In this document: one piece after another, positions 1-59,319 of the stretch | Layout: each line of letters opens with the position of its first letter | Position numbering within the stretch: position 1 is the first letter of the stretch | Assembly (NCBI RefSeq): GCF_900090045.1 | Contig: NC_041782.1 | Location: 1-64,000, forward strand | DNA length: 64,000 nt | Source: Plasmodium malariae | Lineage: Eukaryota > Apicomplexa > Aconoidasida > Haemosporida > Plasmodiidae | Direction: 5' to 3' | The notes under the pieces: model-generated | The model's input: only the letters and a program-made list of their open reading frames with translations | Told to the model about the DNA's origin: nothing | Databases searched by the model: none | Translations under genes and position numbers: made by a program

Positions 1-820
1 TACTTATGACAGCTAGCATTAAAATGCTGAAGCAAAATAAATATTCCATAAAGAAATTCTACTCCTAAACTTCCTATTTGATCTCCTAGATTTCCTTTTA
101 TAAGATTCCACAAACTAGTAAATGATGCAAATATTGGTTGCTCACCCATATCTAATGCACGTAATATAGGCAACCCTTTCCCAACAAGCAAAAAAGTATA
201 AATATAATAACTCCAAAACTATAACTTCTAAATTTTATTTTTTTTAAATCTATGTCATGGATTCTTCTGCTATTTTGAAGAAAATCATCATAATCTTTTT
301 TTCTGATAAATTTTTTTTCAAAATGAAAATGCTTTCCATCAAACATTACATTATTATAATCCATAACTTCTGTGTAGAATTGTGCCTTATTTAATGAGCT
401 TTTATAGTATTCTTTGTTTTTTCCTTTGGTTCCTTCTTTATTATTAGATATATTTTTTTTTTCGTATTCAGCTCTATTTGGCATAACATCATTTAGCTCT
501 ACAATATATGAATCCCTATTCTGCTTATACTTTGCCAGTAATCGATGTATTCTTGCATCTAATTTTATTCTAATTTTACTGTTAACACTGAATGATTCTG
601 TAAACTTGTTCTAAAAAAAAAAAATAGTAAATATTATTATTAAGAGCAATTAACAATTTCATCATTATAAAAGAATTAATATAGAACACGAAAAAAGAAA
701 TAATACAAATAACCGTAAATATTATTGTAATACCACTTCACAACTAATATAACATATCCAAGTTAAAAAAATAAATGCAGAAAATTTAATGAATACGATG
801 GAGTATGATTTTTGTTCCAT
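1..820 (-). pseudogene. fam-m-like exported protein, frameshifted, 3' end outside window
   Basis: Exon 1 is 734-820 (29 codons, MEQKSYSIVF..., ending in LTWIC plus six residues). The intron is 611-733 with GT/AG ends. Exon 2 starts at 610 and reads without a stop to 152. Exon 2 shows RLLAK at its residues 23-27 (PEXEL-like), the family core around KAQFYTEV and FDGKHFHFEKK from residue 75, then a first membrane segment ending LLGKG. There the frame breaks at the run of C/T/C at 171-183. One base off, the expected LPIL sequence continues leftward, with a possible second break near 25-45 before a hydrophobic second segment runs off the window. Related to the loci at 7039-7949 and 42720-43615. 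Real decay and a homopolymer sequencing error are both possible. Family membership is firm; the 'm' label is from memory. Confidence 0.8.
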
Positions 821-3509
821 GATACAGATATATAAAATTTTTATACATCAACTAAAAACAATGTTAATAATAACATAATTCTAATTATTAAAAATTCTGT
901 AATTCCTCTGAAATAACGTTATTATTATGGATTCACATAAATTAATAAAATTTGCTGAACTATTATTCATTTATAACATGTACAAAGAAATGTAACATAA
1001 ATATTATATTATAAAATTTTTATATTTATATTATCTTTTAAAAAATAATATGCGTTAAAAACAAATATTTAATTTATTTATAAATATTCAAAACATACAT
1101 TTAATTATTTAATGAAGTGCACTAATTAAATCATTTTTTTTTTATTCCTTTAATAAATACAATCAAAATATAAAAAATATACTATTTCATAATATTTCGA
1201 AATATAGAGAATATATAGAATATACAACTTGGAGAATGTAGATAATTCCTTGTTCTATATATTAATACAATAAGTAAAAATAATAAGGATTTTATTCTAA
1301 TTACAGTTCTAAATTCATAAACATTATATTGTAGAAGAACCACTTCTTATACTTAAAACATTTTTATTATTAAAACAATATTATAATAGTAACAATATAT
1401 TTAAAAAATTATATTTTACGCTATTTTAATGATAACAGACAATAAAGGTAATTCCTGAATATATACAATTTTTTATAGTATATAATATATTTAAAAAATA
1501 GAATTTATATGCTACTACCTTATCTATAAATTAACATATATTTTAATGATTAATGACAGATTTTTCTATATTTCTCCAACAATATTTGCATATTATAACT
1601 TTCAATTATTTTTGTTTTATAGCATTAGTTGTAAATAAAAAATATTATATTCATCCATATATAATTCTGTTTTGTTTTCTTTATTAAATATATATATTTA
1701 GAAGAAACATCAATATAAGAAAAACAAAAAAAGGAATTCTCAAAATTAAATAATTTCAGATATTTATATATATAATATTTAAATCGAATATAATATTTTA
1801 ACAAATTGTAATAATACGTAATATTAAAAAAAATATATATACTTTTTTTTTAAAATTGTTTCTACGAACATATTTAATTGTTCCATATTGTGTTCCCATA
1901 TATTCTAGTATAATATAAGTCCTAAATATTCTCTTACTATATTAAAATATGCATTGAATATTTCATTGACTAATCAGTACTTTTTAATGATTATGTAAAA
2001 AAGTTAATTAAATCATTTATTAAATATATATTATAATTTTTGATATGAATCTATAAAAAATATAAATATAATAAATTAAAATTCTTTCAAAATGATTGTA
2101 TAGATAATATTGTAATTTATACTTATTTAATTAAGCATTGTAAAAATAAAATATATAATAACCTAATAAATATGTATTATTAATACGTTTCAAAAAAAAT
2201 AAAAAAAAAATTTTATCTATTTATACAATATGGATAAAAAAATAACTCTGTTTTTTTAATAATTATTGTGTTTATAATATTATCATTATTATTATGAAGA
2301 AACTAATAATGGTTAATGCATACTATATATATGTATACTCCTTCAAAATAAAAGTGACATTTTACTTAATATAATTACCTTTAAGTATGAAAAAAAAACA
2401 TATCTATTACATTCATCTATATATAATTATATTATCATAGTAAGGACTGTATTTATTTTCATTATGCTTTCTGAAAATTTTTATTTTTATAGATATATTA
2501 CATGTTTTTAGTAGTTCATTTTTAAAAAATTAAAAAGCAAAAATAAAGAAATTTCAATATATTATGAATTAATATATAAATACGCGCTTAATTAATGAAT
2601 TTTATTCTCTAATATAGTAAAACACAAAAAATATGTATAGTATGTTAATATATTACTCTTCAAAATAATATATATATAATTAATATATTTTAGAAAATTG
2701 TATTAATATGAACCCTTGAACACTAGTAAATAATATTTCTAATTCATTTAATTGTAAATACTAGTATTACAAAAGTTATTGAACTATAATAAATAATTAA
2801 TACTTAAATATTGAATTATTTTACTGTATATTTATTCACATTTATTCATTGCAAAAAAAAAAAAAGTAAACGTAAATTAAAAAATTTATTACGATGAATA
2901 TATTTTATGGTACATTCTCCATAAAACCTGTTTTATAGAATGAATATTATGTTTTTTTTAAATCAAAAGATATATATATATCTATGCAAAAAACAGATTC
3001 GCTTTGTTTTGTTGCATATAAAACAAAGACACATCCTTTAATTAGAACTAATAATTCATTTTTTTAATATCACCATCAAATCATAATTTTCGAATGTAAC
3101 AATTAAAAAATAATAAGTATTATCGTATATAGCTCTAACATATATTAACATACAACTTAAATAATATTATACTAATTTTCCCATTATATATGAATTTTAA
3201 CAAAAAAACATTTTTCATAAGAATCAATTGAAATACAAACATATATAAACATATATTAAGTTATATTTAATTATGTTTAAGAAAGTTCCTTAAAATAATA
3301 ATTGAAAAACATCGAAACATCTGAATTCACTAAAAAGAACTTAACATAATTTTGTACTATTATACATTAAAAGCAGAAAGTATACATGGGGATATTTATA
3401 AAATTATGTAATCCTATATATGCATATTAAGCATATCTCTAAACATATTACATATATTACCTCATATTAAAGGCTTCCTTATATAAAATTAAGTACTTTG
3501 TTATATATT
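821..3509. other. Intergenic: 5' module of the first fam-m gene, then 3' flank of the next gene
   Basis: No gene is seen. The part next to the gene on the left carries landmarks found upstream of the other exported genes: an ATTCAAAACAT-type block near 1086, a TATAGAGAATAT/GGAGAATGTAG block at 1202-1262, and a TATATATATTTAGAAGAAA motif near 1692 followed by an A-rich tract. From about 3300 on it is the 3' flank of the fam-l gene to the right, with a GAAAAACATC...ACTAAAAAG stretch about 190 bp past its stop. Confidence 0.6.
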
Positions 3510-4464
3510 TTACTTTTTTCTGAACTTAATTTTTTCATACTTATTAACTTTTTTATGGTAATATACAATTCCTAACATAATTGTGATACCCAATACAAAG
3601 AAAGATAAGAAATATATTATAGTAGTAAAAAATTTTAAAATGACAATGGAAAAATTCCCATTAGTTAGTTTAATAACACCCTCAAACATTTTCTTAAAAG
3701 GGGAACCCGTATTCCATTACATAAGGTCTCGATCCATCCATCTTTATAATTCACAATCATTATTCGATACAGCTCATTAACAATACCACAACCCACAAAT
3801 AAGTCCAATGTGAGAGATATTGATAACATAAAAAACAATAATAAAGGTAAAGCAAGTTTTATTCCGCATTTTTTAAGTACTATATTTTTATAAACCTTAT
3901 CACTGATTGTCTTGCTATTTTTAAGAAAATCTACATAATCAAGTTCTTTGAATATTTTTTTTTCCAAACGGGAATATTTTTTTGTTTCACATATATTAAA
4001 TTTATTTTTCAGAGCTTGTTTATATTCCCCCAAATTATTCAATGAACATCCATTCGATGTCTTCTTTTTTCCTGTTTCCTCTTTATCATTTATATGTATA
4101 TCTTTTTTTCTATGTAATTTATTGTATTGTATCTCTTTTCTTAACCCTAGAATGCACGAATCCTTATTTTGTCTATATTTCGCCAGTACTCTATAAGTTG
4201 TTAGACGCAATTTACTCCCATTATTTTTCTTCGCGCACGTTAATTTATTAAACATAACCTAAAAATCAAAGTAAACATTTATTATTTACAGAAAAAAATA
4301 TATATATTCTAGAAAATAGTATTAATAAAAATAAATGGAAGAAATATTAATGATGTATGAACCCGCAAATAACACTATCTTACCCTATCATAGGAAAAAT
4401 GATATATCCAATATATTAAGATACAAATTTTAATAAAAAAAAGGAGCCTAATTTTTTTTTTCAT
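3510..4464 (-). pseudogene. fam-l-like exported protein, single frameshift before second membrane segment
   Basis: Exon 1 is 4384-4464 (27 codons, MKKKIRLLFFIKI..., AG|GTAAGA donor). The intron is 4259-4383. Exon 2 starts at 4258. It shows RVLAK at protein residues 50-54 (PEXEL-like), the fam-l core TKKYSRLEKKIFKELDYVDF near residues 119-138, and a first membrane segment near 162-180. The reading frame stops at 3665. At 3700-3703 there is a run of four C on the coding strand; reading past it with one base fewer restores a second membrane segment and the family ending YYHKKVNKYEKIKF, with a stop at 3510-3512. So one base separates this from an intact gene of about 275 residues. It lies 2.7 kb upstream of the fam-m locus on its left, the usual pair spacing. 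An assembly error in the homopolymer is a live alternative. Confidence 0.82.
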
Positions 4465-7038
4465 GATTTAGTTCTCAATATCGTAATATATTCAGTAAAA
4501 AAAATATTAACAATAATATAATATTCGACCAATAATAAAGTATACTCAAACTATAAAAAAAAAAAATTTATATTAATTCTTCGTAAAAACGAAATGAAAT
4601 ATATATGACAATGACGCTTTTGACGATAGAATTAAGTTGAAATAAATTTAAAAATATATTATAGTATTTTTTTTAACTTTATTTTAAAAAAAATTAATTT
4701 TCATTAAAATAAAATAATATGAACAGTTTCATAAATATTCAAAATATAAACTTTAATAAATTAATCTAGTAGAGTAATTAATAATTTCTTATAAATTTAC
4801 TTCAAAAAGAAAATATAAGATTTCTTAATAATTCTGTATATTCAATTCATGTAGAGTACAGAATATATATCCTACAGTTTGGATAGAATATATATAACAC
4901 GATGTTCCATATATTAAGATAATAATAACTAATTTAAGAAATTTTCTTTTCCAAAAAATTTAAATTTGTCAAATGTACGTTTAGTAATCGTAATTTATAA
5001 TTCTTAAATAACATTAATTATAATATTAACATAATAGTATTTATTATATATAAATAAAAAAATCTTAGTACAACATTTTTCGTTATATTATTTATACTGC
5101 TTACATTGATTACTACATAAAAACATTTATTCTTTTACAGCATATAATCTATTTACAAAATGAGAATATATAATATACTAACAAATCTATAAAAAATTTT
5201 TATTTGAAAGGTTAATAAATTATAATTTCTTACTTTTTCATAATAATTTTTGAATTTATAATTTTTAATTTAGTCCATACCGTTATTTATATATAAAATA
5301 TTTTTAAATTTATCTTGTTATTTTTCCTTCTTTTTTTTTTTCATATATAAATATATATATTTAGAAAAAATACCAAGACCAGATATATTGCAGTTTTTGT
5401 AATAATTGCTTTAACATGTGAACAAATTCCTTATTGTAATGAATTATTCTAATTCCATTAATAATATTATTATATGAAATATCTTTTTGACATATTTTTA
5501 TAATAGATATTTAATTAATATATATATAATACATTTAACTAAGAAATTATGTAGCATTAATAAGAAAATATTTAATATGACAATTATATTAATTATTAAA
5601 ATAACATAATAATATATAAAATGAATATTTCAATACATAATATTTCTACTAAATAAGAAATAACACTAATACAATTTGATTATTTTCTAGCAGTATTCTA
5701 ATCCCAAACCATGAAGCATAAATCATAAACATATATTTATAAATTATACATGAAAGAATAATCCTTGTTTTCTAGAAGTATTCTTGTTTTTTATGCTATT
5801 ACTTTATTTAAAAAATTATATTTATAAATATGAAATAATATGTAATAATCAATACAAACTATATGCATTTTTATATATCTTTAAAATAATAATTAATAAT
5901 TACATAATATATTTATAAACCTATAAATTATAAAAAAAATGTAAAAAATAGTACGCACTCATCATAAACGCTTGTAGAATATATAAATGTAGTTTAATTA
6001 CCCCAAATAATAGCTTACATTGTTACATAAATATAATGCATTTTTAGAAATATATAATAATTAGACAAAAAAAAAAAAGTTTTCCTTATATTATCAAACC
6101 ATATATAGTTAAACATAATTCATTAATTTAATTCTTGAATAACATGAAAAATAAAAACAATATATATTTATCTATTAACGTTTATTGTAATATGTATTAA
6201 AATATTTTATTTAAAATAGAGATAACTGTACAATTACGAACAATAATAAAATGATAAATACATTTAATTATTTATATAATTGTAGTGTTTTAGAATAAAG
6301 AAGTTAGTAAATAATTATATATAATCGATATAAAAAAAAATATTTCTTTATTATATTTTAATTATTTCACATTTATATTACCGAAAAACAAAAATGAAAT
6401 TCTCTTAAAAAGATTTCTACCGTTAGTACATTCTAAAAAATATTTTACATAATATACAAAATATAGAATAAAATATTAAGATTTTTCATAAATTAAAAAT
6501 ATATAAATGTACTTATCAGTATAAATAAATGCGTCTAAATCCTTTTATTAATTCTAAAATAATTCACATTTATTGATTTCTTAAAAATAATAATGTATTT
6601 TCATAATAAACAAAATAAATAATAATTTTATATGAGAACAAAACAATAGATAGCACGCACTTATTATTAGTTAATATATAAAATATTACAAAAAAATTTT
6701 AAAAGTATATATATGGTAATATTATTTATTTCTTTTAAAACACATTCACATATTTTACGTGAATATATATATGAATACAAAAATAAATATTTTACGTCAA
6801 ATGTATGTAATAATGGTTAACACATCAAAATGACTATTATAAAACATTAAAATATACTAATTCAAAAAAAAAATTGAAAATCATGCATTTTTACTTTGAT
6901 GCATCAAGAATTCAAAGTATACATATCTGTAATGATAAAATTATGTAAATCATAGTTATTTCTATTAAGAATATATCACTAAATATATCACAGATATAAC
7001 ATCGTATTAATAACTTGCTTACAGAAAAATACATAATA
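4465..7038. other. Intergenic: fam-l 5' module and fam-m 3' flank
   Basis: No gene is seen. The shared upstream landmarks sit at about 4735 (ATTCAAAATAT), 4860-4920 (degenerate GAATATATAT...GGATAGAATA...CCATATATTAAG) and 5350-5375 (TATATATATTTAGAAAAAA). The right end, roughly 6880-7038, resembles the 3' flanks of the other exported genes. Confidence 0.55.
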
Positions 7039-7949
7039 TTATTCATATCCCTCATTTATCAACTTAATTTTTTGATATCTTTCATTATTTCTCAAGATCT
7101 TATAAATCCCTATTATAATTAAGACCGCTAACATAATAAAGTTACTGCATATAATATTATATAAGCATGTGCTTCATTTTGTAAACCTAATGTATTTTTA
7201 AGAAACCCTAAAATTACAGTATCTATATCGCCTCCATTACCTTGAGCAGGTGTACTCAACGAGGATAAATGGAATCCACGTAATATAGGTAATCCTATTC
7301 CTAAAAGAAAAAAAATAAACAATATAGCAACTCCAAATCGGTAATTTTTAAATTTTATTTTATTTAAAGCTATATTTCCAATTCTTCTTTTTTTTTCAAA
7401 AAAATGATCATAATCTTTTTTTCTGATCCATTTTTTTTGAAAATGAAAATGCTTTCCATCAAACATTCCATTATCATAATCGATAATTTCTGTATAGTAT
7501 TGGGACTTATTTAATAAACTTCTATTAAATTGTTCTTTTTTTCTTTTATCCCATTTTCTATTATTAGATAGATTTATACTTTTGCATTCTCCATTATTAG
7601 TTGTAATATCTTTTAACACTAAATTACTTGAATTCCTATCTTGCTTATATTTTGCTAGTAATCGATAATTTCTTGTATCTGATTTTCTATCAAATCCACA
7701 GTTCTCATTCAAGAATTTGTTAGACATTTTCTAAAATAAAAGAAAAATGTAAATATGTACTATTTATTAGAATGCAAAAATTAAAGAATAAAAAAAATCA
7801 TTAATAAATATAATATACAAAGAATAAAAACAATACAAATTACTTAAATAATATTATCGTACTATATCAATGTTAAAGTAACATATCCAAGTTAAAAGGA
7901 TAAACGCAACAATTTTAATGAATAATATTAACATAATTTTTTCTTCCAT
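7039..7949 (-). pseudogene. fam-m-like exported protein, frameshift inside second membrane segment
   Basis: Exon 1 is 7863-7949 (29 codons, MEEKIMLILFIKI...LLTWIC...). The intron is 7731-7862 (GTACGATAATATT donor). Exon 2 starts at 7730. RLLAK is at residues 52-56. The fam-m core runs from SQYYTEIIDY to GKHFHFQKK (about residues 104-129), followed by a basic KKDYDHFF stretch and a first membrane segment at about 160-179 ending GIGLPIL. The frame reaches a stop at 7128 (229 residues). In another frame the sequence continues as a hydrophobic stretch and the fam-m tail KILRNNERYQKIKL, ending at 7039-7041, so a shift occurred at about 7129-7145. The last 30 or so residues of the original protein are therefore lost. 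No homopolymer longer than three bases is at the break, so real decay is somewhat more likely than a base-calling error. Confidence 0.82.
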
Positions 7950-10900
7950 GATACGTATCATTAATATTCTGATTTATATATTAAAAAAAAAATAATAATT
8001 TTATAATATAGTTGCAAATATAAAGTTTGCTATTTTTTTTTTTAAAGCTTTTTTCTAATTGCTACGTTTATACTTTATAAAAAATATATAAAAATAATGA
8101 ATATTATATTTACAAAAAGAAATAATCGAAAAATTATAGTACAAATAGTTTATGTTAAAGTTGTTAAAAAAAAATAAACGTTTATTTAAATAAAATAACT
8201 TCAATACATTCATAAATATTCAAAATATATTATTTCTTTACTTAACATAATGCATCGATTAAATAATTTTTTTTTAATCCTTTTTCAAAATAAAATAAAA
8301 AGAAAATTATATGTTCCTTTTAAATTTAGTAATATTGAGTTTATATAGAATATATAGGAGGTACATAATGTATGTATTATACATTTCTCAAGATATTAAA
8401 ACATTAAATACTAATTTAAAGGATGTTATCCCATTAATAAAGCTAATATTATAAACATTATATTTTAGAAGAACATGCTAATATTCTTAATAATATTAAT
8501 AATACAATTAACGTAATTGTTATAATAATTGATAAAAAAATAACATTATATATTACGTTATTTATAACAGATAATTTAGTTACTTCTTAAGAACGTACAT
8601 TACTTTATAGAGTATAATGTTATTAAAAAAATATAATGAATTTTGTACTATATAATTGATGAGAAAATATGTATTTTAATGGAAAACAATGACTAATTTT
8701 TTATTATTGTAAAATAATTTTTAATAATTATTATTCTTAATTAAGTTTAATTTATATCATTATTTCTAAATGAAATGATTCCAAATACTCAACTCAATTT
8801 TTTTTTAATTAAATATATATATTTACAAGAAATATATTTGAAAAAAAAAGAAGTGATTTTAGTATAAAATGTTTAAATGCAGAATAATCATGGATTAGTA
8901 ATGCATTTTTTTAACACTATCTTGAATAAAAATAATAATCATTTTGGTTTTCAATTTAATTTTTCATAGAAATACTAATAATTTTTGTAAAACTAAACTA
9001 AATCAACAATTTATTAACTTCACTAATATTATCCTTAATGTATGAATCATTTAATTTATTTGTGATATACTTTATTAGTCAAAATTAATGATCTCTTATA
9101 TATATTATAGCTAAATATTATGTTTATACTAATTTATTCGAAATTTCCTACAAGTATTTTGAAACATAAACTAAAATTATTTTATACACACAAGTATGGA
9201 TTTTGCGAAAAAGAATATAATTACTTAAAACATTGTAACATTTAATAGTAACACAAAAATGAAAAAGTACTAAGATATATATTAAAATGTTTTTTTGTAA
9301 TGCAGTGAACCTTTTTACTTTCATTTATCTATATATATACCTTAATTATTCTAGCTCGAACTATAATTTTTCAAAAACAAATTAAATATTTAAGCTGTTT
9401 TATATTCTAAGGTATGCATTTTTATATATGCAAATCGCACAATTACCAAAAAAAATATTGGCCTTAATCCTTTATGTTAATTTGAGTTTAAGAATACCAA
9501 TTTTAAGAAAAATAAATATCACGTAAAAAGATCGTATATAAATTTAAAGTCATTTATTATTTTTATATAATTAAGTCATTTACTCCAAATAAAACTTAAG
9601 ATTATAATGAAGATATACTGAAGTTTATAGCATTAATAAATGCGTAATTTTATATGGAAGAATTTACAATATAAAATAATACAGTTTAAAAATACAAAAT
9701 TTTATATACAAAAAATTTACTAAAACTCAGGAAATTTTTTTATGTATGAATATTTTTCTTTTAAATATTAACGACATTGAAATAAGGCATTTATGATTTA
9801 TACATAAATACTCTCAAAATAATATATTAAATAGTAACTCTTGTGCAACTAATGTAAATAAAATAAATTTGATGTATTATGAAATATAACTTTGAGAACA
9901 AAAATATTTATATTTGTATGTTTTTATTCCTTATACTTTGATTCATTTAGCGTTGTAGATAGATATAAAAATATTATATATTAAATGTATTATTTTAATA
10001 ATATAATGATAATTTATAGCAGTTTTCCTAGGAAAATTACTTTTGTAAAAACTAAATTATAAAAGAAAAAAAGAAATTGTAGATCTAAGGTGTATATATA
10101 ATGAATATTTTTCAGTTATTCTTCTATTTTTATTTTTTTTGTTAACTTTTCTTACTATTTTTATTACATAATTTATATAAAGCTTAATTTATTTTATTTA
10201 TATATATAATTCAATTTTTGTATAATATACTTTTTTCATTTTTTAACCCTTACACATTACTAATATCCTAATTTTACAGTATATATTTCCTATGATAATA
10301 TATATTTCAAAGTTCAACAATTTTGTATTTTATTGTAAAATAATTGTAATAATTTTTTTTTTCTGTCATCCATAGATAGTTTTATGGGATCATTGATTTT
10401 ATTAAATTATTCTATTCTTTTATAATAGCGCTGATATATATTATTCTCTATAATATTATGCTTTTTCTTTTAATTTTTCTTCAATAAATTTAATAATACA
10501 TTATATATATATTGACCAAATATGTTTCCTTATATATTTATATTTTGACTATATATAATATATTTTTAAGAAACAATATCTATATAATATAAAATTACAA
10601 AAATGATAAAATATTTTTAATCATTTTTATTTTATATAACTTTTTGTTTATCATCATTTTATATATAATAAAAAATAAAAACTTTATTAATTACAGATAA
10701 TTACATTCAGTAGATATTTCTATAATGTTATGTTTAGGAATACCATTTTTATCAATGAAAATGCTGAAATCACTTTTTTCTGTGATGTCTTATAAAATTG
10801 TTATTATTTTCATGATTTATTTTATTTTTGTATAACATTTTTCTCTAATGTAAAAATATAAAGAATATTATATAGTTGTAGCTTTTATTTAAAGAATTAT

Positions 10901-38600: not shown

Positions 38601-38941
38601 TTTTATGATAATAAATACAAATCAACTCACAATAACAATAACATTATATAAATACGTTTTTACTTATTAATTTTAAGGACTATACAAATATTTTTTTAAA
38701 AATATCTTTTTGAATGCAGAAACATATATGTGAAACATGATATGATATTAGATGTAGAAAATATTCTAAATCCACTGGAAAAAGTCAAAATAGTCAAATT
38801 AAAAAAACAATAAAAAGTGTTTATTTTTAATGTTCATCATAAAAAAGGATAAGTAGATATGAGGGATTTTATAAAATTTAAGCAATTACAGGTATATTCT
38901 CTATTTTTGTATAACATTCAGGAAATTATATGTATGTATTG
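35675..38941. other. Intergenic: fam-l 5' module and long conserved 3' flank of the exported gene
   Basis: Landmarks upstream of the fam-l gene: about 35950 (ATTCAAAATATA), a degenerate copy of the -400 block at 36070-36130, and 36540-36590 (AAACATTTAGAAGGAATATT then A20). From about 36.65 to 38.94 kb the sequence is a diverged colinear copy of 60.93-63.17 kb, the 3' flank of the other third-family gene. A relatively G+C-rich spot at 37240-37450 contains an open frame that is not kept in the other copy. A (TA)n run lies near 37770. Confidence 0.6.
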
Positions 38942-43615: not shown

Positions 43616-46315
43616 ATAATATATCTTTAATATTGTAATATTTAAAATAATGAATAAATTAATAATAATATAATATTCGTCTAATGATAAAGGACACTAT
43701 AAATATTTATTTAATTTTTTTTTATTATTTTTTATATTTTTGAGGTAAAGTGTTGATGAAATATACATAACTAGAATGCACTTTGAAAAAACTACATAGA
43801 AATATAAATGAAAAATATATTGTATTATTTTATGATTAAGTATAATTTAATAAAAATCAAGAGTTTTCAAAATAAAATAATTTGAATTGAACTATAAATA
43901 TTCAAAAAAAAATATTATTTAATTATTTATTTAGTTAAATATTATATAATTTTTTTTTATTTATTTCAGAATAACTTAGATATATGACATTTCTAATTAT
44001 ATGTAAATATTCAGTTTATGCCTAATAGAGAAGATAGAGGATATATATATAATACATTACCCTATATATTAAAACTATTATTAATAAATTTGTGTAATTT
44101 ATGCTATTAGAAATTATAATTTTGCAAATTTTATATTTTAGATAAACCACTTATTATTCTTAATGAATATTAATTATTAAAACATATATTAATTAAAGAA
44201 AATATTTTGTGTCATCTAAATTAAAATTTATGATTTAGTTGGTCCTTATTCATATAAAGATTTTTACATTCCAAATATAATTAAAAAAATTTATTTTATA
44301 ATGTACCAACTAATCAACAAAAAAATATATGTTTAAAGAAAGTACGAACTAATTTTTTATAATTGCAGCTTATTTTTTAAAAATTATATTTTTTAATGTT
44401 ATGGAATTGTGTTATTTATAAATAAAATATTTTTAAATTCATCAATTTATTTTCTTTTTTGTTTTATTAATATTTATTTTAAATATAATATTTCAATTAA
44501 AAAAAAACATAAAAGAATTTGTATATTAACGGTAGAATATTTACATACATCTATGCTCATACATGTTATTTGTAGAGAATAACATATTTTAACTAATTAT
44601 AGTATTACTTTATATTAAAAATAAACACAAGGTTAAATAAAAAAAGTAATTGCTTCTTTTAGCAAAATTCTTTTTAGTCATGTTTTCATTTTTCCATAAA
44701 GAATATTCTATATATATCCGTCTCATTCTCTGTAGCTCAGATATATATTTTTAAAAAAAAAAATTAAAATTAATGTACATGGATTATTTTAATGAATAAT
44801 CAATAGTGTAAGTATATATATTTATCAAACTCAAACATATATTAGTACTATATTAAAACGTTTATTTGTAAGGAATAAAAATATAATTTATTGAAAAAAA
44901 ATACTCGAGAAATATTTTCATATTTATGCTTATGTATTACACTTATCTACTTATTCCACGTAAAATAAATAATGTATACTATAAAACAAACCTTATTAAA
45001 ACTTAGTTGATAAAGAAAATCTATATTACTCATTAATGTTTTGCTTACAAAAAAGTAGTTCTTCTTTTTTTTTTATTTTTATATTATTTTAAAAATGACA
45101 TTATGAATATAAATGAATTATTAATTTACAATATAAACTATATGTATATATACACACCTCCAAAATGGTAATAACTAGTATTATAAATATTCACGTAAAA
45201 AATAGGAAATATACATATAAAGAATTACCTACACATTATTATATGATCATGTAAAAAATATATATTTATTTATCTCCCTTAACAATAATTCACCTTCTTA
45301 TAGACATAAGCATATATTTAAATTGCTAAAAATATGAAAAACGAAAGAAAAAGGGAATTTATATGTATTATATATTAATATATTTTCAACTTCAATGAAT
45401 TAATTTTTTAAGTATGTGAAATTTAAAAAAAATATATAGTTAATTTATTCATAAATTTTCTATATAATATATATTTAAGTCTCCAAAATAGAATTAACAC
45501 AATAATAAAGAAAAATATAAAGTAATAAAATTAACTATCTATTTAAATGGAAAGATAAAAAACGTATAAATTCTTAAAGAATTATAAACAGTGGATATTT
45601 AATAAATAAATGATATTTATTATATACTAATGTCCTAATAAGGATATCATTAAGAAAAAAAATAGCATATATTAAAATTTTTTTTTTTTTATTTTGTTTC
45701 ATAGTTTATTTCCCTAAGAATTACTTCTATACAATAAATTTTAATTTTTTTTAAGTATATAAATATATATATATGTATCATTCTAAGAAAATATATTGTC
45801 TTCTAATCATTATATAATAAAGAAGACCTATTCAGTTCGAATACAATATTAATAATACATTTTCTTAATGGAAAGAAATTATAATCATTATAGATTAGAA
45901 AAAAATAATGAACAAAAAACGAATGTTTTATATCAATTATAACTTATCACAATCAATATCATTATATGAATCTTGAATTACATTATTCATTTTAATACAC
46001 ATAAATATATATATATTTTTCATAGAAAAAAATTATAAAACGAAAAAATATATACAAAACTATTATATTTATTCAAAGTAGTACAATATATTATAATGTA
46101 AATTAAAAAATATTAAAACATTCAAATTCCGAAAAATCTTAGAAAATATATTTTTACACATATATATCAAAAATACTATATATATATATGAGTTCAGCTC
46201 CAAAATATAATCAGTTATGAGTATTTCTAATAAGCATATAGTTAATGATATTATAGAAGCTATTTTATATTAAGGAATTTATTACAAAAAAGAAATACAT
46301 TTATTAATATTCACT
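43616..46315. other. Intergenic between the members of the intact fam-l/fam-m pair
   Basis: No gene is seen. Landmarks upstream of fam-m are at about 43890 (ATTCAAAAAAAAAT), 44028-44090 (ATAGAGAAGATAGAGGATATAT...) and 44485 (a degenerate form before an A-tract). From about 46110 the fam-l 3' flank begins (AAAACATTCAAATTCCGAAA at 46116). There is no sign of a shared promoter: each gene has its own 5' block. Confidence 0.6.
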
Positions 46316-47279
46316 TTATCTTTTCCTGAATTTAATTTTTTCAAATTTTTTAACTTTTTTATGGTAATAAATAATTCCTAATATAAGAGTTATACCAAAT
46401 ATAAAGAAGAGTACGCAGTATATTATAAAATGAAAAAACGGTGTTATATAAAAATCAGTAGTACTTCCACCATTTTTTGGTACTGAATACTTGAAAAACG
46501 AGCTTACAGCGGATTTCAAATAGCAATGAAACTTCCCCATTATTGACGGACCTAATGAAAAACTCAATAACTTATATAACCCCCTACTAAGGCCACAATT
46601 ATAAGAAAAATCTAATATTAATCCTAATGAAAACAACAAAAACAATAATAAAGGCAAAGCAAACCGTAATCTGTTTTTTTTAATTATTATTTTTTTGTAC
46701 AACTTATCACTAATTGTTCTGTTGTTTTTAAGAAAATCCTGATAATCAAGTTCCTTGAATATCTTTTTTTCTATACGAGAATATTTTTTTGTTTCAAATG
46801 TACAAGTTTTATTTTTCATATATTTTTTATGACCTCTTGTATTTCCTGGTGAACTTCCATTTGACTGCTTCATTTGTGTTTTCACACTTTCTTCATTATT
46901 ACATATATCGTTTCTATTATTTAATCCAATATTTAGTATTTCTTCATTTGTACATATAAAATTTAAATCCATATTATGTGTACACTTTCCTAGTAATCTA
47001 TAATTCCTTGTTTTTTGTATTTTCTTAAGCTCGCAGTACTTATCCAATGATATATTGAACATGCTCTAAAAAAATAATACGTAAATATTTGTTATTTAAT
47101 AGTATAAATAAGCTAGAAGGAAAAAAAAAGTATTAACAAAAAAAACAGAAAAATATTAGTATTTCAAATATCCTTAAATAATATTATCATACAACATCAA
47201 TGTAAAAAGGACATATCCAAGATAAAAGGATAAACCCAAAAAAATTAATAAATATGATTGTCTTTTGTTTTTTTCCCAT
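46316..47279 (-). CDS. fam-l-like exported protein, intact (278 aa)
   Basis: Exon 1 is 47193-47279 (29 codons, MGKKQKTIIFINFFGFILLS, then WIC and six more). The intron is 47066-47192 (GTATGATAATATT donor). Exon 2 is 46316-47065. RLLGK is at residues 52-56, after KTRNY. The spacer is Asn/Ser-rich. The core TKKYSRIEKKIFKELDYQDF starts near residue 121, the first membrane segment is at about 163-181, a long loop of about 55 residues with Gly/Ser follows, the second membrane segment is at about 236-262, and the tail is IIYYHKKVKKFEKIKFRKR. All family landmarks are present and in frame. Together with the fam-m gene at 42720 it forms a head-to-tail pair. The family has been said to be structurally RH5-like in the literature as I remember it; nothing in this sequence alone shows that. 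Confidence 0.93.
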
Positions 47280-50200
47280 TATATAGATAATATTACAATG
47301 TAATCAATATAAAGAAGTTAATAATATTATACTATACATCTAATAATAAAAAGCAAAATTCTTTTTAAAATTTTTTTTTTATCATTGCTTCTTAAGTAAG
47401 TAAAAAATATACATAGCTATAATATACTTCAAAACATCTATGATACAAAAATAAATTTAAAATGTATTGCATAATATTTATCATAGTCATAATTAAGAAA
47501 AACCAACTTTTCTTAAAAAGAAATAATTTGAATTAACTAATAAATATTTATAATATCTAATCTAATTATTATATATAGGAAACTAATTATATAATAATTT
47601 ATTTGTTGTTTTATCAATAAATTCTGAAATAAATACGTAAATACTTTTTATATTTGAATATTTATTTTATATAGTATATAGAATGTAGAGAATACATATA
47701 TTATATATTCCTGTATATATTAAAATAATTGCTTATGTTAAGAATGCTATACCATATTAAATTCAAATTTTATAAATATTTATTTTGGAAAAAGTTCAAA
47801 TTTTGAATGAAATATAGATTATTATAATAATACAATAATAGAAATAATAAAAAAAATAAATATTTTTGTTAATTTAATTATAAAAAATGCATTAATTCAT
47901 CGCCAAGTAGACACAATTTTTTTTTAGTGTATAATTTTTTTTTAAAGGAAATATCTAGCGATCTACCTAATATATGAAAAAATATATATTCTAAAAACAA
48001 ATAAGGAGTAATTTTTTATTGTTTTACTATAATTCATTAATATTTCTACTTTAATTAAGTTTAATTTATATCACTGTTTCTGAATTATAAATCCCTACAT
48101 TAATTTACATAATTTTATAATTCTCTATTAATTAATTATATATATTTAGAAAAAATATTAAATAAGAAAAAAAAAAAAAAAAGAAACTAAAATCAAAAAT
48201 GGCATCAAAATATTACATATAATTTCATTAATTTAGAAATATATAAAATGAAATAAATTTACAAATAAGAATAGTATATGCAAGATGTAACATATACATA
48301 AGAAATCAAAAAGAATAACAATATATTCTACTAATATATATGGTTTAGTAATTTATCTGCTTATACATTTAGAAGGAATATATATTTTTTTTTATTTATT
48401 CTTTTAAAGATACATAATATAAGGAACATATATTGTTGACGATGATCAATGAATCGACGTAAATATATAAATGAATAATATTTTATGAAAAATACTATTA
48501 AAATCATCAAATATAATTCCTACAATATTTTGTTCTTTTTATGATTTTTTGAAGAGAACGATAATTTTTAAATTATTGTATATATACCAAAAACTATATT
48601 AATCCTGTAAAATATAACATTATAATATCCTCATTAACAAGTATTTTTTTCGAATTATAATTAAAAATTTAAAAAAGTAAATAAATAGCTAAATTTATAA
48701 CACAATTTTTAAATTACATAAATTAACATAATTATATTTGTATTATTTTAATGTATATGTAATCTAGTTTTTACAATAATGAAAAAGAATCTTATTTAGT
48801 TTCATTTAGTTTTTTGCACAATTTTCTTGCCTTAGTTTTTTACTAGTAATGTTACTACATAAAAAATATAATAACCTATTTTTAATATTTACAAAAATAT
48901 AAATATAAATTATAAAATCAAAATAAAAAATAAATAAACTATATAATTTAATTCCTATAAAAATTCAGCTATAAATAGGCCTTTTTAATTTTAGAAGAAC
49001 TGCTTATTTCTAAATATTTTTTTGTTCTATTTTTTTAAACAGTATATATAATTTTTCCTATATTAATTATTTTTTTTTTTTTAAATAGGAATTCATATGC
49101 AAATAGTTTAATTTTGTTGTAAAATATTAAATATACTTCTTTTTAAGTATATATACAATATGTGAATTGTGCTATTATATAAATATATATATATTAATAA
49201 AGATTACATGCTTTCCATAAAATGATTTTTTATATTTAATACATACTAATAAAACTTGTCAAATAAAAGATAATATTAAATTTCAAAATATAATTATCAT
49301 ATTTACCCTAAATATACAGTTAAAAACTTACAAAAATATACATTTTGCATTTAAATGTTCAATTTGTATAGAATGTAATATAACGTTTACATTGTTAGAA
49401 CTATAATTTATTTATGTATATCTATATTTTTTTTTGTTTTGAAGAAGAAAAATTGCTTACAGATTTCCTCTTTTTTATATTTTTAATATAAATTATTTGT
49501 TTAATGTTTCTAAAAAATGTAAATACTTAAATCAATACATACACTCTATAAATACATGCTAAACAACAAGACTAATTATATAATAATTTATAAATAGATG
49601 TATTATACATATGTCAAATAAGTTTTTTTAAAAAATTGCAAAATTTAAAATATAATTATGGTACTCGTAATATTTATATGACTAAGTCATAAGGTGGACT
49701 ATTCTCAAAATTTGTCAATTAAGGGAATGAAGCTCTTCAATATAAATGAATCCTATATCCTGAAAAAACATTCTCGCGAGAAGTTTACACACGAGAATAA
49801 GTACATACGTACGATCAGTAACACTAATTAATCTAAAGTTTTTCTAAAATTACGGTAACATATATTTATCATATTTCATATTTTTTCTTTTTTTCACACG
49901 ATAAGTTATTACAAATATACATGAAAATTCTCTTCTACAATCCATTTATTCTTTTACAACAAGAAATTGTTGATCTATTAATATCACATTTACAAATATG
50001 TATTTTTTTTTATATAATTTTACTCCATTTGAAAAATTAAGTTGCTTCAATAAAAAAGCATATAATATTTTTAAAATATCTATATAAAAAAAATGATCAA
50101 TTAACTATTCATTATTCTGAGAATTATCAGACATATATGTGTGGAACGACATACAATATAGTACATCGTATCGAAAATAACTTTAACTTATAATTGTTCA

Positions 50201-53200: not shown

Positions 53201-55601
53201 ATGTTTTCCTTCAATGATAATATTTCTTTTTTTTTTTTTTTTTTTAATAAACATAGGAAATAACTATTATGCTTTATTTATGCATATTCTTCACTTTGCT
53301 ATTTTATATGGACATAATTATTGTATGATACCCTATTTCACAAATTGCAGCTTAGGGATATCAATATAGAATAATTATATGTTCCTACTATTTGTTGAAT
53401 AGTTCCTATTATTAGTATGAATATGTTAAATATTTACTTGGAATATAAAACTTAATACTACAATGGCTATTTGAAGCCTATTCTTTTTTTATATTAAATA
53501 ACAGAATTGGAGTATATAAAATTTATTAAAGGTGGTCGCTTGCAATATGTATATGAGTAATTCCTCTTAGTTCTATCCATTTTGACTATAGCAATAAATT
53601 TATATTGTCAATGTATTTCAATACTGCTTTACGCTTATTGCTTTAACCTTTCAACATGATAATATTTCTTATATTTAATATTAATTAGAGAAGGAGTAAG
53701 TAGAACATATATTTATAGGGATTCGCATCATTAGTGAAATTCAAATAATTTTTAAAGAATTATTTTATTATTATCGACTAGTCTAAAATGTTCTGTTAAA
53801 TATATATAAGAAACACATTAGGTGTTAATATTCATATAGTGCTATATCAAATGTATATATGCTCTACATTTATTTAAGTTATTCACTGTTTAGATGATAT
53901 AATAGTTAAGGAACGACATATATATATATGTATGTATATTAAAGCATTCAAAATGAAAGCTATATAATAGGTATATACAAACTGAATAATTTAAATATAA
54001 TTTTTATTTATTCAAATATTATTAATTTTGGCTTAAATATTGGAAAGCATATTTTTTATATACTCCTAAGAACTGTGCTATTCTTTTGATGCTTCACTAA
54101 TAGTATATTAAATATGTTGAATATTTTATGCAGTTTGACATGATTATCAAATTATCAACAATAAAAGACTTATTTTTTTAATAATATGTGTTAGTTGTTT
54201 TATTGTTTAAGGAGTATCCTTATTTTTTTTAAAATTACTTTTTGGATTGAGTTATTTCTTTACCTTTTTATAGTGAGTGTAATGTATATATTTTAGCATC
54301 GTCTAAATAAACGTATTAGAGAATTCTAATTATGCGAATGATAAAAGAAATATTAGTTAATCATTCTTCAAGTGTTCTAATTTCTCTATTTATCCTTATA
54401 TACAGAATTTTTCATTCGAGTGTTGCTTACACAAAAAATTAGTTAATTAATAAGCATAATGTGATATAGTCCCTGGACTGTTTATCATTTTGCTTGTACA
54501 ATATTCTATAGAATTTTAAATTTAGGATAATAGTATATATATATATATACATTTTAAATTAATACTTTTTTGTCGATAAGTATTTACAAGAACTGTATGG
54601 ATGTCTATTGTGCGCTTTGTATTCCCTCTATGGTATTAATAAGGAAAATACGTTATATATATTATTAGTGATATTCTAAAATTTTAAAAGTTAATAAACT
54701 AATAAATTTAACACTTTTGTGATAATTTATATGTTTTATGATTATATATAATGTAATAGTACGAGTCTTTTTATCATCATATCTATTATGTATTTACAAA
54801 AGGTTATTACTCCTATTATACTTTGAAAAAATATTTCTTAAACCTCTTATGAACTACTAAAAATTTCGCAATACGTGAAAAGGTGAAGTAAAATAATATA
54901 AACAAAAAAATATTTAATAAAAATAATAATTTAATATAAATCTATATTTTCTCTTTAAACCATTAAAAAAAAAAATAAATGTTTGTTAAAAGGACGTTTA
55001 AATAAATAAGTTCTATAACACATTATTAATAAACTTATATATATAATAATTATTAAATATTTTCTTATATAATATATATGTATTAATACAACAATATACA
55101 TTCACATATAATTGGTAAACGAAAAATGTAATCCATTTTTTTTAATGTAGATCTAATTAAACATTTATCTAAATATATCAACAAATAATCATTTTAGATT
55201 ATAAAGAAATCAAATAAAAAGAAATCTTATTATAGCTAAAATATAAATCACCACAAAATGTTGATAAAATTGTATAAATTATCTTTTTATATAGTAATAA
55301 TAACGTACAAAAACATATACGAATTTAGTGGAATACATTAATATACCAGAAACCATTATTTACATTAACGCTCAAACTATAATTTAAACTACAAATAGAA
55401 ACATATTAAAACATTCTAATTCACAAAAAAACTAAGATAAAATTTTAACTTGTGCATAAAAAATTTCCTTATCTGTATGTTCATATATATAAAAATTAAG
55501 CAATTATTAATATGTTTATTATATATATTTATATATATTGTAATTATTAGTTTACATTGATTATTTTATTACAGAAAAAGGTATGTAACTCGTTATTAAT
55601 T
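47280..55601. other. 8.3-kb gene-poor stretch
   Basis: The left end is the 5' module of the fam-l gene: about 47550, 47672-47730 (TATAGAATGTAGAGAATACA) and 48140-48180 (TATATATATTTAGAAAAAAT then an A-tract). The right end, from about 55415, is fam-l 3' flank (AAAACATTCTAATTCAC). Between them no exon of any local family was recognised on either strand. Two spots stand out: 49690-49860, less AT-rich and with a 12-base palindrome TTCTCGCGAGAA at 49771-49782, and 52.7-54.7 kb, which has fewer homopolymers than its surroundings but stops in all frames. A T-tract of over 20 bases is at about 53229. Confidence 0.55.
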
Positions 55602-56587
55602 TTATCTTTGTCTGAACTTTATTCTTTCATATTTTTTAACTTTTTTATGATAATAAACAACCCTTGATATAAGTGTTATACCTAATATAAAAAGTGGTAA
55701 TCCATATATTAGGATTCTAAATAATCTAAATAATACATGCAATTCACTGATAGTTGTTCCAGGCGTTTCTCCAATGGATCTCCAAAACCCTTGTACTACA
55801 TCTTTCAGAGAATTATATACTGCATTCAACCACCCATTTTTCCCCATTCTTTCAAAGTTTTCGAAAAACCTATTGCACCCCACAACCCATTTTTCCATCT
55901 ATCAAACCCCACGATAAATCTACTATTGGCAATACTGATAACAAAAAGAACATTAATAAAGGTAAAAGAAATAGTATTACGCATTTTTTACGTATTATTT
56001 TTCTGTAAGACTTATTACTAATTGTCTTGTTGTTTTTAAGAAAATCCATAAAATCCATTTCTTTGAATATTTTTTTTTCAAAGTGGGAATATTTTTTTGT
56101 TTCAAACATACACTTGTTTTTTTTCATATATGATTTACAGTTTCCTGTAAAATCTAATGGTGTTCCATTTGCATGTTTTCTTTTTCCAGTGTACCCTTCC
56201 ATATGATTAGATATATCTTTTATTTTCGTCATTCCATTATTTGTCATTTCCTCTTTTAAACCTAAGGCATTTGAATATTTATCCCGTTTATATTTTGACA
56301 GTATACGATATGCTTTTCCATGTATTTCTATACTATAATTGTAACTTTCATAAAAATATTTATTAAATGTACACTAAAAAATCAAAAAAAGAAATGAATA
56401 TCAAAAAAATAAAAAATATCACACTAAAAAAAGTAATTACAAAAATGAAACAAAAAAAAAACAAGAATAACACAAATATATTTAAATAATAATATCGTAC
56501 CATATAGATGTAAATATAACATATCCAACTTAAAAGGGTAAACTTAGGAATTTTAATAAATAACAGTGACTTTACTTTTTTTTCCAT
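55602..56587 (-). pseudogene. fam-l-like exported protein, frameshift between membrane segments
   Basis: Exon 1 is 56501-56587 (29 codons, MEKKVKSLLFIKIPKFTLLS, then WIC and six more). The intron is 56374-56500 (GTACGATATTATT donor). Exon 2 starts at 56373. RILSK is at residues 52-56. The core TKKYSHFEKKIFKEMDFMDF and a first membrane segment ending LSWGL are intact, then the frame stops at 55870. A second frame from about 55898 carries a loop with GKNGWLNAVYNSLKDVVQGF, the second membrane segment and the tail YYHKKVKKYERIKFRQR, ending at 55602. So a shift lies in about 55870-55910; the third frame there also reads plausibly (WKNGLWGAIGF), so two compensating-type changes are possible. Runs of C4 near 55877 and 55907 make a base-calling error possible. 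There is no fam-m gene within 3 kb downstream, so it is unpaired. Confidence 0.82.
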
Positions 56588-59319
56588 TATATAGAACTTT
56601 AATATAGAAATACACGAAGTAAGAATATAATTAACAAAATATGGTACTCTTTTAAAAATGAAATATACAATTACTTTTTATTTAATCTGTCTTTTATATT
56701 TTTTTATAAAAACGCAATGAAAACTATGTAACTATTATTTTTTTTACAACTGAGTTAATCAAATGTAAATTTAAATGTATATTATAAATTTTTTATCTTA
56801 ACTATATGTACATAAAAATAAAATTAATTAAAATGAAGTGATCTAAATTAATTAATAAATATACAAAATATGTAAATTATTAATTTAATACAGTATATTA
56901 AGTAAATATTTATTAATTATTTTCAAAACAAAATAAAAAAGAATATATTTTAATTCTTAATATATCGAAATATTGAATATATAGAGAACGTAGAGAATGT
57001 ATATAATGCTTTGCTCTATATTTTAAGAGAAATATTACTGTTCTTATTGATACGTATCTATTAATATTTTTAACATAAGAATTATATTCTTGGAAAACTT
57101 GTTATGCCTATTAAATTATTAATTATTATAACAATATAATAATAGTAGTAACAAATGAAGAAAAAAATAAACTGTACGACCTTTTCTCTCATATTTTTAA
57201 TAGCTAATATATTAGTTAATAGGTAAATTTATGCATTTCTTTTATGGACAATAATATATTTTAAAAATAAAATATAGAACACAGGAAATATTCCACAAAA
57301 AATACTTACTTTAAACGCAAATAAGAATTTATATTTATCGCTACTATATAATTTTTAAATGGAATAATTTTTAATTATATATTATTTATATTAACATTTC
57401 TAAATGCAAATTTTGTAAATTTAAGGATATTATTCAATTTTTTATTTTTTAATATATATATATTTTTTAGCAGTATTATTAAAAAAAAAAAAAAAACTAT
57501 GAAGTAATTCCTATATAAAATATACTAAATCCTAATAACTTTGGTTCACTAATATATTTCCATAATAATATTTGGAATAAAAAGAAATTTTTATTTTTGT
57601 TACTAATTTATTTTGTAATAAATATTAAATTAATTCGTATATCATATTATTAAATACACTGTTATGCAAGTGTAATCAAAATATAATAAATGTATTTTTT
57701 CTTTTATTGGTAAAACTTCATAATAAGCAAACTAATTGTCTACCATGTATGTAACCATTACAAATTAAAATTGAATTATCAATTTTTGAATATATAGTAC
57801 TAATAACTTGAACCTGAAGCAACAAGAGTTAAATACAAGCTTATGTCATATAAAGAAAAGTATGTGGCTTCATAAAATATCATAACTTTTAATATTTATT
57901 AAGATAAAAATAAATAATTAAAAAACATTAAAAGTTCTATTAACAAGGTTCCTAATTTTGCTAAGTATATATATTAAAAATATTGATATTAAGGTATCAA
58001 TGACCAATTATATGTTTTTAAAAAGGCTGAAATATTTAAGGTGTTTCATGTTCTAATTTATATATATTCAAAAATACTTAGCATATGATTAATAAATCTA
58101 ATAATTATCTAAGTGGGTCTTTCAATATGAACTTATAGTAAAGCAATTTCAACAAAATTAGAGATTAATAATGTTAAAATTCCATAAATAAATTTCTTAC
58201 AAAACAGTATAATATATCTTTATTTATAATATAAAGATTTATATCTATATTATAATATATTAGAGGTTATAGTATTGTCAAAACCTCTATAAAAATTTTA
58301 TGATGTACTTATATATGTAATGTTCATACTATTAAAAACTTATATTATTTAAAAGTTAATTAAATTTTTTCATCTTTTATTTTTGTTATATAATTATAAT
58401 CCATTTAAAATGTAAAAATATTTAATGTTTCTACATATATTTATATATAGAATATAAAAATATATATTATACCAAGTTAAATATTATAAAGGTAAAAGTA
58501 AAACTTTAACTTCCATATACATTATGATAGAGAGAATTCACAGATTACTTTATATTTGTATGATATAGTCTATTTATCGAATATTACGTTTATAATTAAA
58601 ACACGTTTTTACAGAACATAAATTTTTATTTAAGTAATAAATTCTTATTGTCACATACATTACTTACATTTTATTTAAAATTACTTTTCGTTTAATTAAA
58701 TTTTAATTTTAGTAAATTTCGTGAAGTTCAGATTCTTAACCAGTGTATATATTGTTAAAACTTATTATAAATATTAAATAAAATAATATGAGAGTTATAA
58801 TCTTAACAATAAAAACAATTATAATAAAATAAAAGAGAAACATCTATGCTTTATACATACTAAACATTTATCTATTTATATTAATTTAAAATGTCCAAAA
58901 TATTCCTAAATAGATATTGCATTATAATAGGAAATGTATATTGGAATGAACTAGAATTATTTTATTTATTTGTATAATATATCAGTACAAATATATGAGA
59001 TTCATATAAATAAACAAACAGAAAAAAGCAGTTTCCTCTAAATTTATTTTTATTTACAATTATACAAACTTTTTTTTTCAAATAATTATATTGTCTATTA
59101 GAATAGTTTATTTCATATTTTACAAATTATTCTACCGTATTTTAATACTAATAAAAAGTAAAAAGGTAATTTTCCTGTGTATTTTGTTTTTAAAATTTTC
59201 TGTATGAAAAAAATTTACAAACCACATATAAACATATTAAATATATTTTTTCTTTTATATAAATATTAATATTACACCAATTTAATTTTTGCTATTTAAT
59301 TTACGTAAATCTATATACA
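56588..59319. other. Intergenic: fam-l 5' module, then spacer to the plus-strand PIR remnant
   Basis: Landmarks upstream of the fam-l locus are at about 56870, 56975-57030 (TATAGAGAACGTAGAGAATG...) and 57450-57480 (ATATATATATTTTTTAGCAG). No exon is seen from 57.5 to 59.3 kb. This interval separates two divergently oriented loci, so it should contain the point where strand orientation switches. Confidence 0.55.

Follow-up and report, generated by a model that had tools for sequence, protein, structure and literature searches.

The ups types of the var genes belong to the general background of work on upstream regions in malaria parasites. For the rif genes of Plasmodium falciparum, the relevant passages of PMC2257938 describe 500-bp flanks on both sides that follow the coding groups, although the agreement in detail is only partial, and for the fam-l and fam-m genes of Plasmodium malariae, passages of PMC5326575 report doublets, an export signal, and transmembrane segments, and claim an RH5-like fold. 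Here, we analyze a stretch of 64,000 nucleotides of P. malariae (assembly GCF_900090045.1, contig NC_041782.1, positions 1 to 64,000 of the forward strand; hereafter, the window), in which nine genes of fam-l, fam-m, and a third group share an upstream region. A previous sequence-only reading had seen in them one 5' cassette driving three exported-protein families with unrelated bodies. Very probably, they are instead paralogs within one subtelomeric superfamily, PF12420, which multiplied as whole gene units and whose upstream regions seem to have been occasionally exchanged long ago.

The genome searched comprised 33,612,066 bases in 62 contigs, and 65 further loci of the same genome, chosen from the search hits, were fetched. 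The window and loci L001-L040 together held 61 PF12420 loci, 9 of which were left out (7 without a recognizable signal exon and 2 without a group label), leaving a labeled set of 52 genes: 21 fam-l, 15 fam-m, 11 of the third group, and 5 of a third-group subclade, t2. For 49 of these, 1000 bp of upstream sequence were available. The subclade t2 corresponds to L021-L025, in which the third-group match starts late; these are diverged third-group genes with the same kind of signal exon.

A shared gene unit of about 3 kb

All nine ATGs (820, 4464, 7949, 23469, 35674, 39819, 43615, 47279, and 56587) are on the minus strand, with upstream toward higher coordinates. At each of them, the reading frames show an open, hydrophobic-looking exon-1 frame of about 26-32 amino acids, a GT intron start, and an exon-2 frame about 200-220 bp further. 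By body motifs, five genes are fam-l (ATG 4464, 23469, 35674, 47279, and 56587) and three are fam-m (ATG 820, 7949, and 43615); the third group comprises the gene with ATG 39819 and a tenth gene at 63169-63843, whose first exon lies outside the window. The names fam-l and fam-m, taken from the sequence-only reading and from general knowledge rather than from named reference genes, are presumed to fit these two body groups.

A profile of the 900 bp upstream marked nine strong places in the window, each ending at most 15 bp from one of these ATGs (E 1.8e-108 for the weakest), together with a single trace, and none in the window's PIR region. When one family at a time was used to build a model of positions -900 to 0, the fam-l model found 15/15 fam-m, 11/11 third-group, and 5/5 t2 upstreams; the fam-m model found 21/21 fam-l, 10/11 third-group, and 5/5 t2; and the third-group model found 21/21 fam-l, 15/15 fam-m, and 5/5 t2. 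The start implied by these cross-family matches was within 200 bp of the ATG. Reversed sequences gave no match to the upstream family models at E 1e-2, and the upstream model had no match in 14 PIR and 5 PHIST upstream stretches of 2.2 kb each. Thus, the colinear upstream region that the sequence-only reading had attributed to the nine genes is confirmed, as is its absence from PIR genes, both in the window's PIR region and in the 14 PIR upstream stretches. The decayed gene near 26.7 kb, which had likewise been said to lack the upstream block, retains a weak upstream trace at 27516-27988.

The similarity of the upstream regions over the three gene groups is real and is separated from chance only by scored or profile alignments. 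Median ungapped pairwise identity was about 0.71-0.75, both between the main groups and within them, and 0.72 in shuffled sequence, that is, no excess, a result that the sequence-only reading had named as speaking against the sharing; the profile alignments are clearly above the random level. Ungapped identity was dropped as a test, AT-rich real and shuffled segments both reaching about 0.72.

The extent of the sharing was mapped with 450-bp pieces by cross-family profile detection. Beyond -900, sharing is patchy (e.g., 3 of 6 fam-m genes at -1350 to -900), and from -900 through exon 1 and the intron to the end of the N-terminal part of exon 2, detection is complete or nearly so. The body DNA gave the lowest detection, with the fam-l model reaching 14 of 15 fam-m genes at a median of 40 bits and 0 of 10 in the third group. 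Behind the stop codon, the same model matched 8/8 fam-m and 2/2 third-group genes at 0-450 bp (1 of 30 reversed controls matched), again 8/8 and 2/2 at 450-900 bp, 5/8 and 0/1 at 900-1350 bp, and 0/4 and 0/1 at 1350-1800 bp, the third-group sharing downstream being that of two downstream pieces only. The shared unit is therefore a whole gene of about 3 kb, consisting of about 0.9 kb upstream, the signal exon and intron (about 0.2 kb), exon 2 (about 0.7 kb), and about 0.9-1.3 kb downstream. The similarity picks up again after the stop codon, which makes the shared element a complete gene unit, with the body as its fastest-changing part, rather than a 5' cassette. The sharing that the sequence-only reading had traced through the signal exon and intron to the export-like motif holds for the 5' part; the divergence that follows ends at the stop codon, where sharing returns.

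Two blocks recur within the upstream module. Block B (-400 to -430) occurs with at most 4 mismatches in 28 of 49 genes, against 0.4 expected in shuffles and 0 of 98 other upstream windows, and with at most 6 mismatches in 44 of 49, against 7.2 in shuffles. Block A, which sits at the module's outer end (-870 to -910), occurs with at most 4 mismatches in 25 of 49 genes, against 1.9 in shuffles and 2 of 98 other upstream windows. Thus, the two landmarks that had been placed at nearly constant distance from the nine ATGs are enriched across the family but are not sharp in all nine genes (block B has 7 mismatches at 4464 and 6 at 35674; block A has 6 at 43615). Read in the direction of the gene, the block previously given as TATAGAGAATGTAGAGAAT is a doubled ATTCTCTA near -410, the most conserved noncoding block of the alignment at 1.06 bits per column, with the start-codon and signal-exon blocks at 1.12-1.18. 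A pattern for the block core was found at 33 places genome-wide, and its backward control at none. Of these places, 11 are followed by an exon-2 match, either among the matches listed or inside the window, and 1 partly coincides with an upstream DNA match; of the remaining 21, 6 were retrieved, each of them standing in front of an exon-2 match, so that among the 18 places examined, 17 precede family genes and one overlaps an upstream match. A second core pattern occurred at 15 places against 1 for its control. Judging from conservation and position, the upstream 0.9 kb would most likely hold the promoter and 5' leader, with the doubled ATTCTCTA as the best candidate for a core-promoter element or transcription-factor site.

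The features of the window are as follows, with E values from the profile searches.

152..820, minus strand: fam-m gene, signal exon from 820, exon 2 at 152-610, short frame of 152 amino acids (PF12420 E 2.7e-44)
822..1724, minus strand: upstream module of the fam-m gene with ATG 820 (profile match 1724-822, E 2.2e-126; block A exact at 1689, block B with 2 mismatches at 1203)
2411..3495, minus strand: downstream module of gene 4464 (E 2.8e-152)
3665..4464, minus strand: fam-l gene with ATG 4464, exon-2 frame at 3665-4258 and a second frame piece beyond (broken, two open reading frame pieces; PF12420 E 1.3e-53)
4474..5376, minus strand: upstream module of the fam-l gene with ATG 4464 (E 3e-119)
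5966..7039, minus strand: downstream module of gene 7949 (E 1.2e-156)
7128..7949, minus strand: fam-m gene with ATG 7949, exon 2 at 7128-7730 (PF12420 E 7.3e-47)
7951..8849, minus strand: upstream module of the fam-m gene with ATG 7949 (E 2.2e-130)
21446..22542, minus strand: downstream module of gene 23469 (E 2.9e-175)
22545..23469, minus strand: fam-l gene with ATG 23469, mosaic with the 35674 gene (PF12420 E 1.3e-68; identity profile of the pair)
23484..24379, minus strand: upstream module of the fam-l gene with ATG 23469 (E 2.6e-126)
25640..26092, minus strand: weak downstream trace of the decayed gene near 26.7 kb (E 3.1e-4)
27516..27988, minus strand: weak upstream trace of the decayed gene near 26.7 kb (E 8.2e-4)
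31158..31681, minus strand: downstream module of a decayed PF12420 gene near 31.7-31.8 kb (E 1.6e-62; exon-2 fragment E 6.6e-7)
33638..34735, minus strand: downstream module of gene 35674 (E 6.1e-169)
34737..35674, minus strand: fam-l gene with ATG 35674, exon 2 at 34737-35462 (PF12420 E 2.3e-71)
35685..36578, minus strand: upstream module of the fam-l gene with ATG 35674 (E 8e-116)
37853..38989, minus strand: downstream module of gene 39819 (E 7.2e-85)
38942..39819, minus strand: third-group gene with ATG 39819, exon 2 at 38942-39607 (PF12420 E 2.9e-43; body alone E 6.7e-11)
39820..40703, minus strand: upstream module of the third-group gene with ATG 39819 (E 1.8e-108)
41626..42717, minus strand: downstream module of gene 43615 (E 2.4e-153)
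42720..43615, minus strand: fam-m gene with ATG 43615, exon 2 from about 43397 to 42720 (PF12420 E 1.7e-56)
43619..44507, minus strand: upstream module of the fam-m gene with ATG 43615 (E 2.3e-111)
45222..46314, minus strand: downstream module of gene 47279 (E 3.9e-142)
46316..47279, minus strand: fam-l gene with ATG 47279, exon 2 at 46316-47065 (PF12420 E 4.3e-72)
47283..48175, minus strand: upstream module of the fam-l gene with ATG 47279 (E 1.7e-113; block core at 47675-47694 by the genome-wide pattern)
54742..55600, minus strand: downstream module of gene 56587 (E 6.2e-109)
55602..56587, minus strand: fam-l gene with ATG 56587, broken, exon-2 frame pieces at 55870-56373 and 55602-55898 (PF12420 E 5e-54 and 2.4e-14)
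56589..57495, minus strand: upstream module of the fam-l gene with ATG 56587 (E 8.1e-137)
62527..63144, minus strand: partial downstream module of the tenth gene (E 1.6e-44)
63169..63843, minus strand: exon 2 of the tenth gene (third group), signal exon and upstream module expected beyond the window (PF12420 E 5.6e-38)

Frames are broken in the 4464 and 56587 genes, each of which consists of two frame pieces, and the 820 gene is short. The decayed PF12420 fragment at 31158-31825 keeps its downstream module well and has no upstream-module match. At least 15 further copies of the start region of the 35674 gene (35400-35700), 90-98% identical to it, are spread over many contigs, among 40 places scored. 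The third group seems large, with 154 matches to exon 2 of the 39819 gene, the lower ones grading into fam-l and fam-m; many of these protein matches contain single stops inside the matched stretch. No Rfam family was matched and no tRNA gene was found in the window.

Bodies and export-like motifs

PF12420 (DUF3671, "Fam-L, Fam-M like protein") is matched by each of the ten exon-2 frames at about 131-243 bits against a cutoff of 34: nine score 148.3-242.6 bits (the 56587 gene by its main piece) and the tenth gene 131.1, with six frames reaching the profile end and four cut short. The bodies alone, taken after about residue 80 of exon 2, match in all six cases tested of the ten (42.5-157.1 bits), including two third-group bodies at 42.5 and 52.7 bits against the same cutoff. 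In hhalign comparisons, fam-l and fam-m bodies align along most of their length with a probability of 98.2% (E 6e-14), and fam-l and third-group bodies reach 75.3% (E 2.5e-5); six reversed controls gave 0.4-4.9%. At the level of sequence, these comparisons show the bodies of the three groups to be homologous, within one Pfam family in which the third group is the most distant. The bodies are thus not unrelated, as had been supposed, and the idea of the third group as foreign to fam-l and fam-m is corrected.

Among 43 single-frame genes, the strict export motif RxLx(E/Q/D) is present in one, and there too early in the sequence, and the relaxed R-x-(L/I) lies at residues 10-35 in 38, usually in a YRLLAK-like form. 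The motif is mostly R-x-L-x-K rather than RxLx(E/Q/D); a looser cleavage rule may apply, or the export motif may be sited elsewhere. R-x-L is missing from residues 10-45 in the five t2 genes only. These five near-identical loci, on five contigs, carry CRIMA or CRMMA (SRMMA in one) in place of YRLLAK and keep the signal exon and upstream module.

If recombination had placed a mobile promoter-signal-export cassette in front of unrelated effector bodies, this would fit the sharing from upstream to the export-like motif and the mixing of families in upstream trees but not in exon 2 (below). We regard such a cassette as highly improbable: the bodies form one Pfam family, those of fam-l and fam-m aligning over most of their length, the 3' flank is common too, and no recent cross-family tract is present in the sample. 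Nor do the 13 extra matches of the fam-l model point to a free-standing cassette, for six fall at PF12420 genes without a known start or label, one precedes an apparent decayed third-group gene (L005), four run off the tile end (two of them with a signal exon in sight), and two are weak and without owner (L016, E 3e-9; L007, E 7e-4). On the minus strand of L005, at about 7100-9000, the frames behind the upstream module resemble, by eye, a decayed third-group gene; the profile missed those frames.

Descent and exchange of upstream regions

Common descent with slower change of the flanks explains most of the sharing. The nine genes (ten with the gene at 63.2-63.8 kb) are paralogs of the PF12420 superfamily, the unit of about 3 kb having been multiplied whole and the exon-2 body then diverging fastest. 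In ten recent pairs, some of which share genes, upstream divergence was below exon-2 synonymous divergence (dS) in eight, and the exon-2 ratio of nonsynonymous to synonymous divergence was about 0.4 to 1.5. This small set fits moderate constraint on the upstream flank and a fast body, and with such unequal rates, similarity would stay obvious in the flanks while fading in the bodies.

On this background, fam-l and fam-m would occasionally have swapped upstream regions in the distant past. Nothing recent keeps the upstreams alike: among 953 cross-family BLAST matches, none reaches at least 80% identity over at least 80 bp, and therefore no recent homogenization of the sampled families is apparent. 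The 25 strongest matches are colinear at 65.6-69.2% identity, and most of them start close to the upstream edge and extend into exon 2. Fam-m and the third group are each a single clade in the tree of bodies (38 rows), and in the upstream tree (49 rows), there are 9 label changes against 22.6 after shuffling, so that labels still cluster. With 11 near-copies removed, 38 nonredundant upstream rows remained. Constraining the three groups to be separate on these rows costs 44.6 log-likelihood units (lnL), compared with 0.2-9.0 for 12 data sets generated under the constrained tree with model and tree fixed; label changes on these rows number 9, against 2-6 in the simulations.

Eight segment trees gave 8-9 label changes each. 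With six simulations per segment, separating fam-l from fam-m costs 18.0 (null at most 2.8) in upstream half U2 and 31.2 (null at most 3.6) in U1, and 0, that is, perfect separation, in the N-terminal part of exon 2, the body, and the first downstream piece. With eight other upstream alignments or trims, the cost was 13.8-23.1. Approximately unbiased (AU) tests on the upstream region against group separation gave p 0.0023 for fam-l, 0.021 for fam-m, and 0.017 for the third group; they are weighted below the simulated null because a two-tree AU test on a nearly star-like tree is easily biased. Two earlier null simulations (costs 83-117; 6-9 label changes) were judged invalid, the supplied tree being, given the known behavior of the program, only a starting tree.

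A few old exchanges of upstream regions between fam-l and fam-m, with break points before exon 2, are thus probable; the support is statistical, and no single event is proven. The discordance of 5' and body trees that the sequence-only reading had suggested looking for is present, the upstream mixing fam-l and fam-m beyond the simulated null and exon 2 not, with few genes driving the signal. Its suggestion that recombination keeps the modules alike stands to this limited degree and fails for recent times.

Several observations weigh against this reading. The 52 labeled genes are a small, nonrandom sample drawn from search hits, with L001-L020 from four contigs only. No mixed fam-l/fam-m branch has strong support in the upstream trees. 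The signal comes from few genes, because leaving out the fam-m gene L038 lowers the cost from 21.7 to 8.8 and leaving out the 47279 gene lowers it to 12.3; L039 and the 35674 gene carry it to a lesser extent. Two segments are insecure. Exon 1 with the intron, at a cost of 7.5, is barely above its null maximum of 5.1, and the second downstream piece, at 3.2, barely exceeds its own maximum of 2.5; null values of -6.9 and -5.9 in that piece point to noise in the tree search amounting to several units. Misfit of the model could contribute to the upstream signal. The fam-m and third-group bodies align weakly in hhalign (22.2%), one marginal downstream-model match lies inside a PIR stretch (L044, E 0.0098), and in two of the recent pairs, upstream divergence is about equal to dS (L022/L024, 0.046 vs 0.043) or above it (L031/L033, 0.164 vs 0.108).

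Pure common descent, with the upstream mixing an artifact of short deep branches and AT-rich alignment, is accordingly a possibility to be taken seriously, if doubtful. The uniform and old cross-family identity, the clustered labels, and the lack of a strongly supported mixed branch are in its favor. Against it, the observed cost far exceeds the simulated null, the N-terminal part of exon 2, similar in length to exon 1 plus the intron, separates perfectly, and the mixing is robust to the eight alignments or trims.

A clear mosaic within one family is seen in the fam-l genes 23469 and 35674. Between -1000 and about +450 relative to the ATG, the two share some 60% of positions (0.46-0.73 for each 100 columns); their identity then rises to 0.80-0.93 until roughly 0.2 kb beyond the stop codon and is 0.68-0.81 thereafter. 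The upstream region rejects grouping the two (AU p 0.0096), and the bodies group them with support of 100/99. The pair is a mosaic within fam-l with its break inside exon 2, a common body standing behind different old 5' ends.

A stronger form of exchange, in which the 5' end (perhaps with the signal exon) would be an exchangeable promoter module inside the superfamily, exon 2 and the near 3' flank remaining loyal and heterodimer partner families being placed under one regulator that reads the doubled ATTCTCTA, seems to us unlikely. If true, two putative heterodimer partner families with many hundreds of genes would share one regulator. Very little speaks for partner co-regulation, in which fam-l/fam-m doublet neighbors would keep matched upstreams for joint production of heterodimers, and we give it hardly any credence. 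Doublets and tree co-variation are published (passages of PMC5326575), and the neighbors 47279 (fam-l) and 43615 (fam-m) lie close together in one upstream tree with weak support (43/71); against this, six adjacent fam-l/fam-m pairs fall at percentiles 0.05, 0.09, 0.46, 0.69, 0.71, and 0.78 of 252 cross pairs, which is no excess.

Comparison with known systems

The preferred reading, of paralogous whole units with occasional old upstream exchange, supplies the largest gene families of P. malariae, a neglected human parasite without continuous culture, with an upstream element and unit boundaries, and opens a direct test of fam-l/fam-m co-regulation. In the open-access literature searched, we found no account of shared flanks of fam-l, fam-m, or PF12420 genes, nor of one upstream region common to fam-l, fam-m, and the third group that mixes fam-l with fam-m. 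A figure legend in PMC5326575 places fam-l and fam-m in separate similarity clusters, whereas here they are linked by their flanks and by PF12420; the passages of that paper that treat co-evolving doublets do so without shared flanks, and the third group is not named in them. The PIR-D proteins of P. vivax belong, according to a passage of PMC7432439, to PF12420/DUF3671, the same family as all ten exon-2 frames here. According to passages of PMC1805447, the upstream regions of the P. vivax genes msp1, dhfr, and vir3 did not work in P. falciparum.

Family-wide flanks as such are of a known kind: as far as the passages of PMC2257938 go, the 5' and 3' flanks of the rif genes are the same kind of finding. 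The difference is that the rif flanks separate two groups (PMC2257938), whereas the upstreams described here mix fam-l and fam-m. Likewise, in the var ups types, as set out in passages of PMC2257938 and PMC3491689, a conserved upstream region defines gene groups, as it does here; unlike the var types described in those passages, a single upstream type here spans three protein groups.

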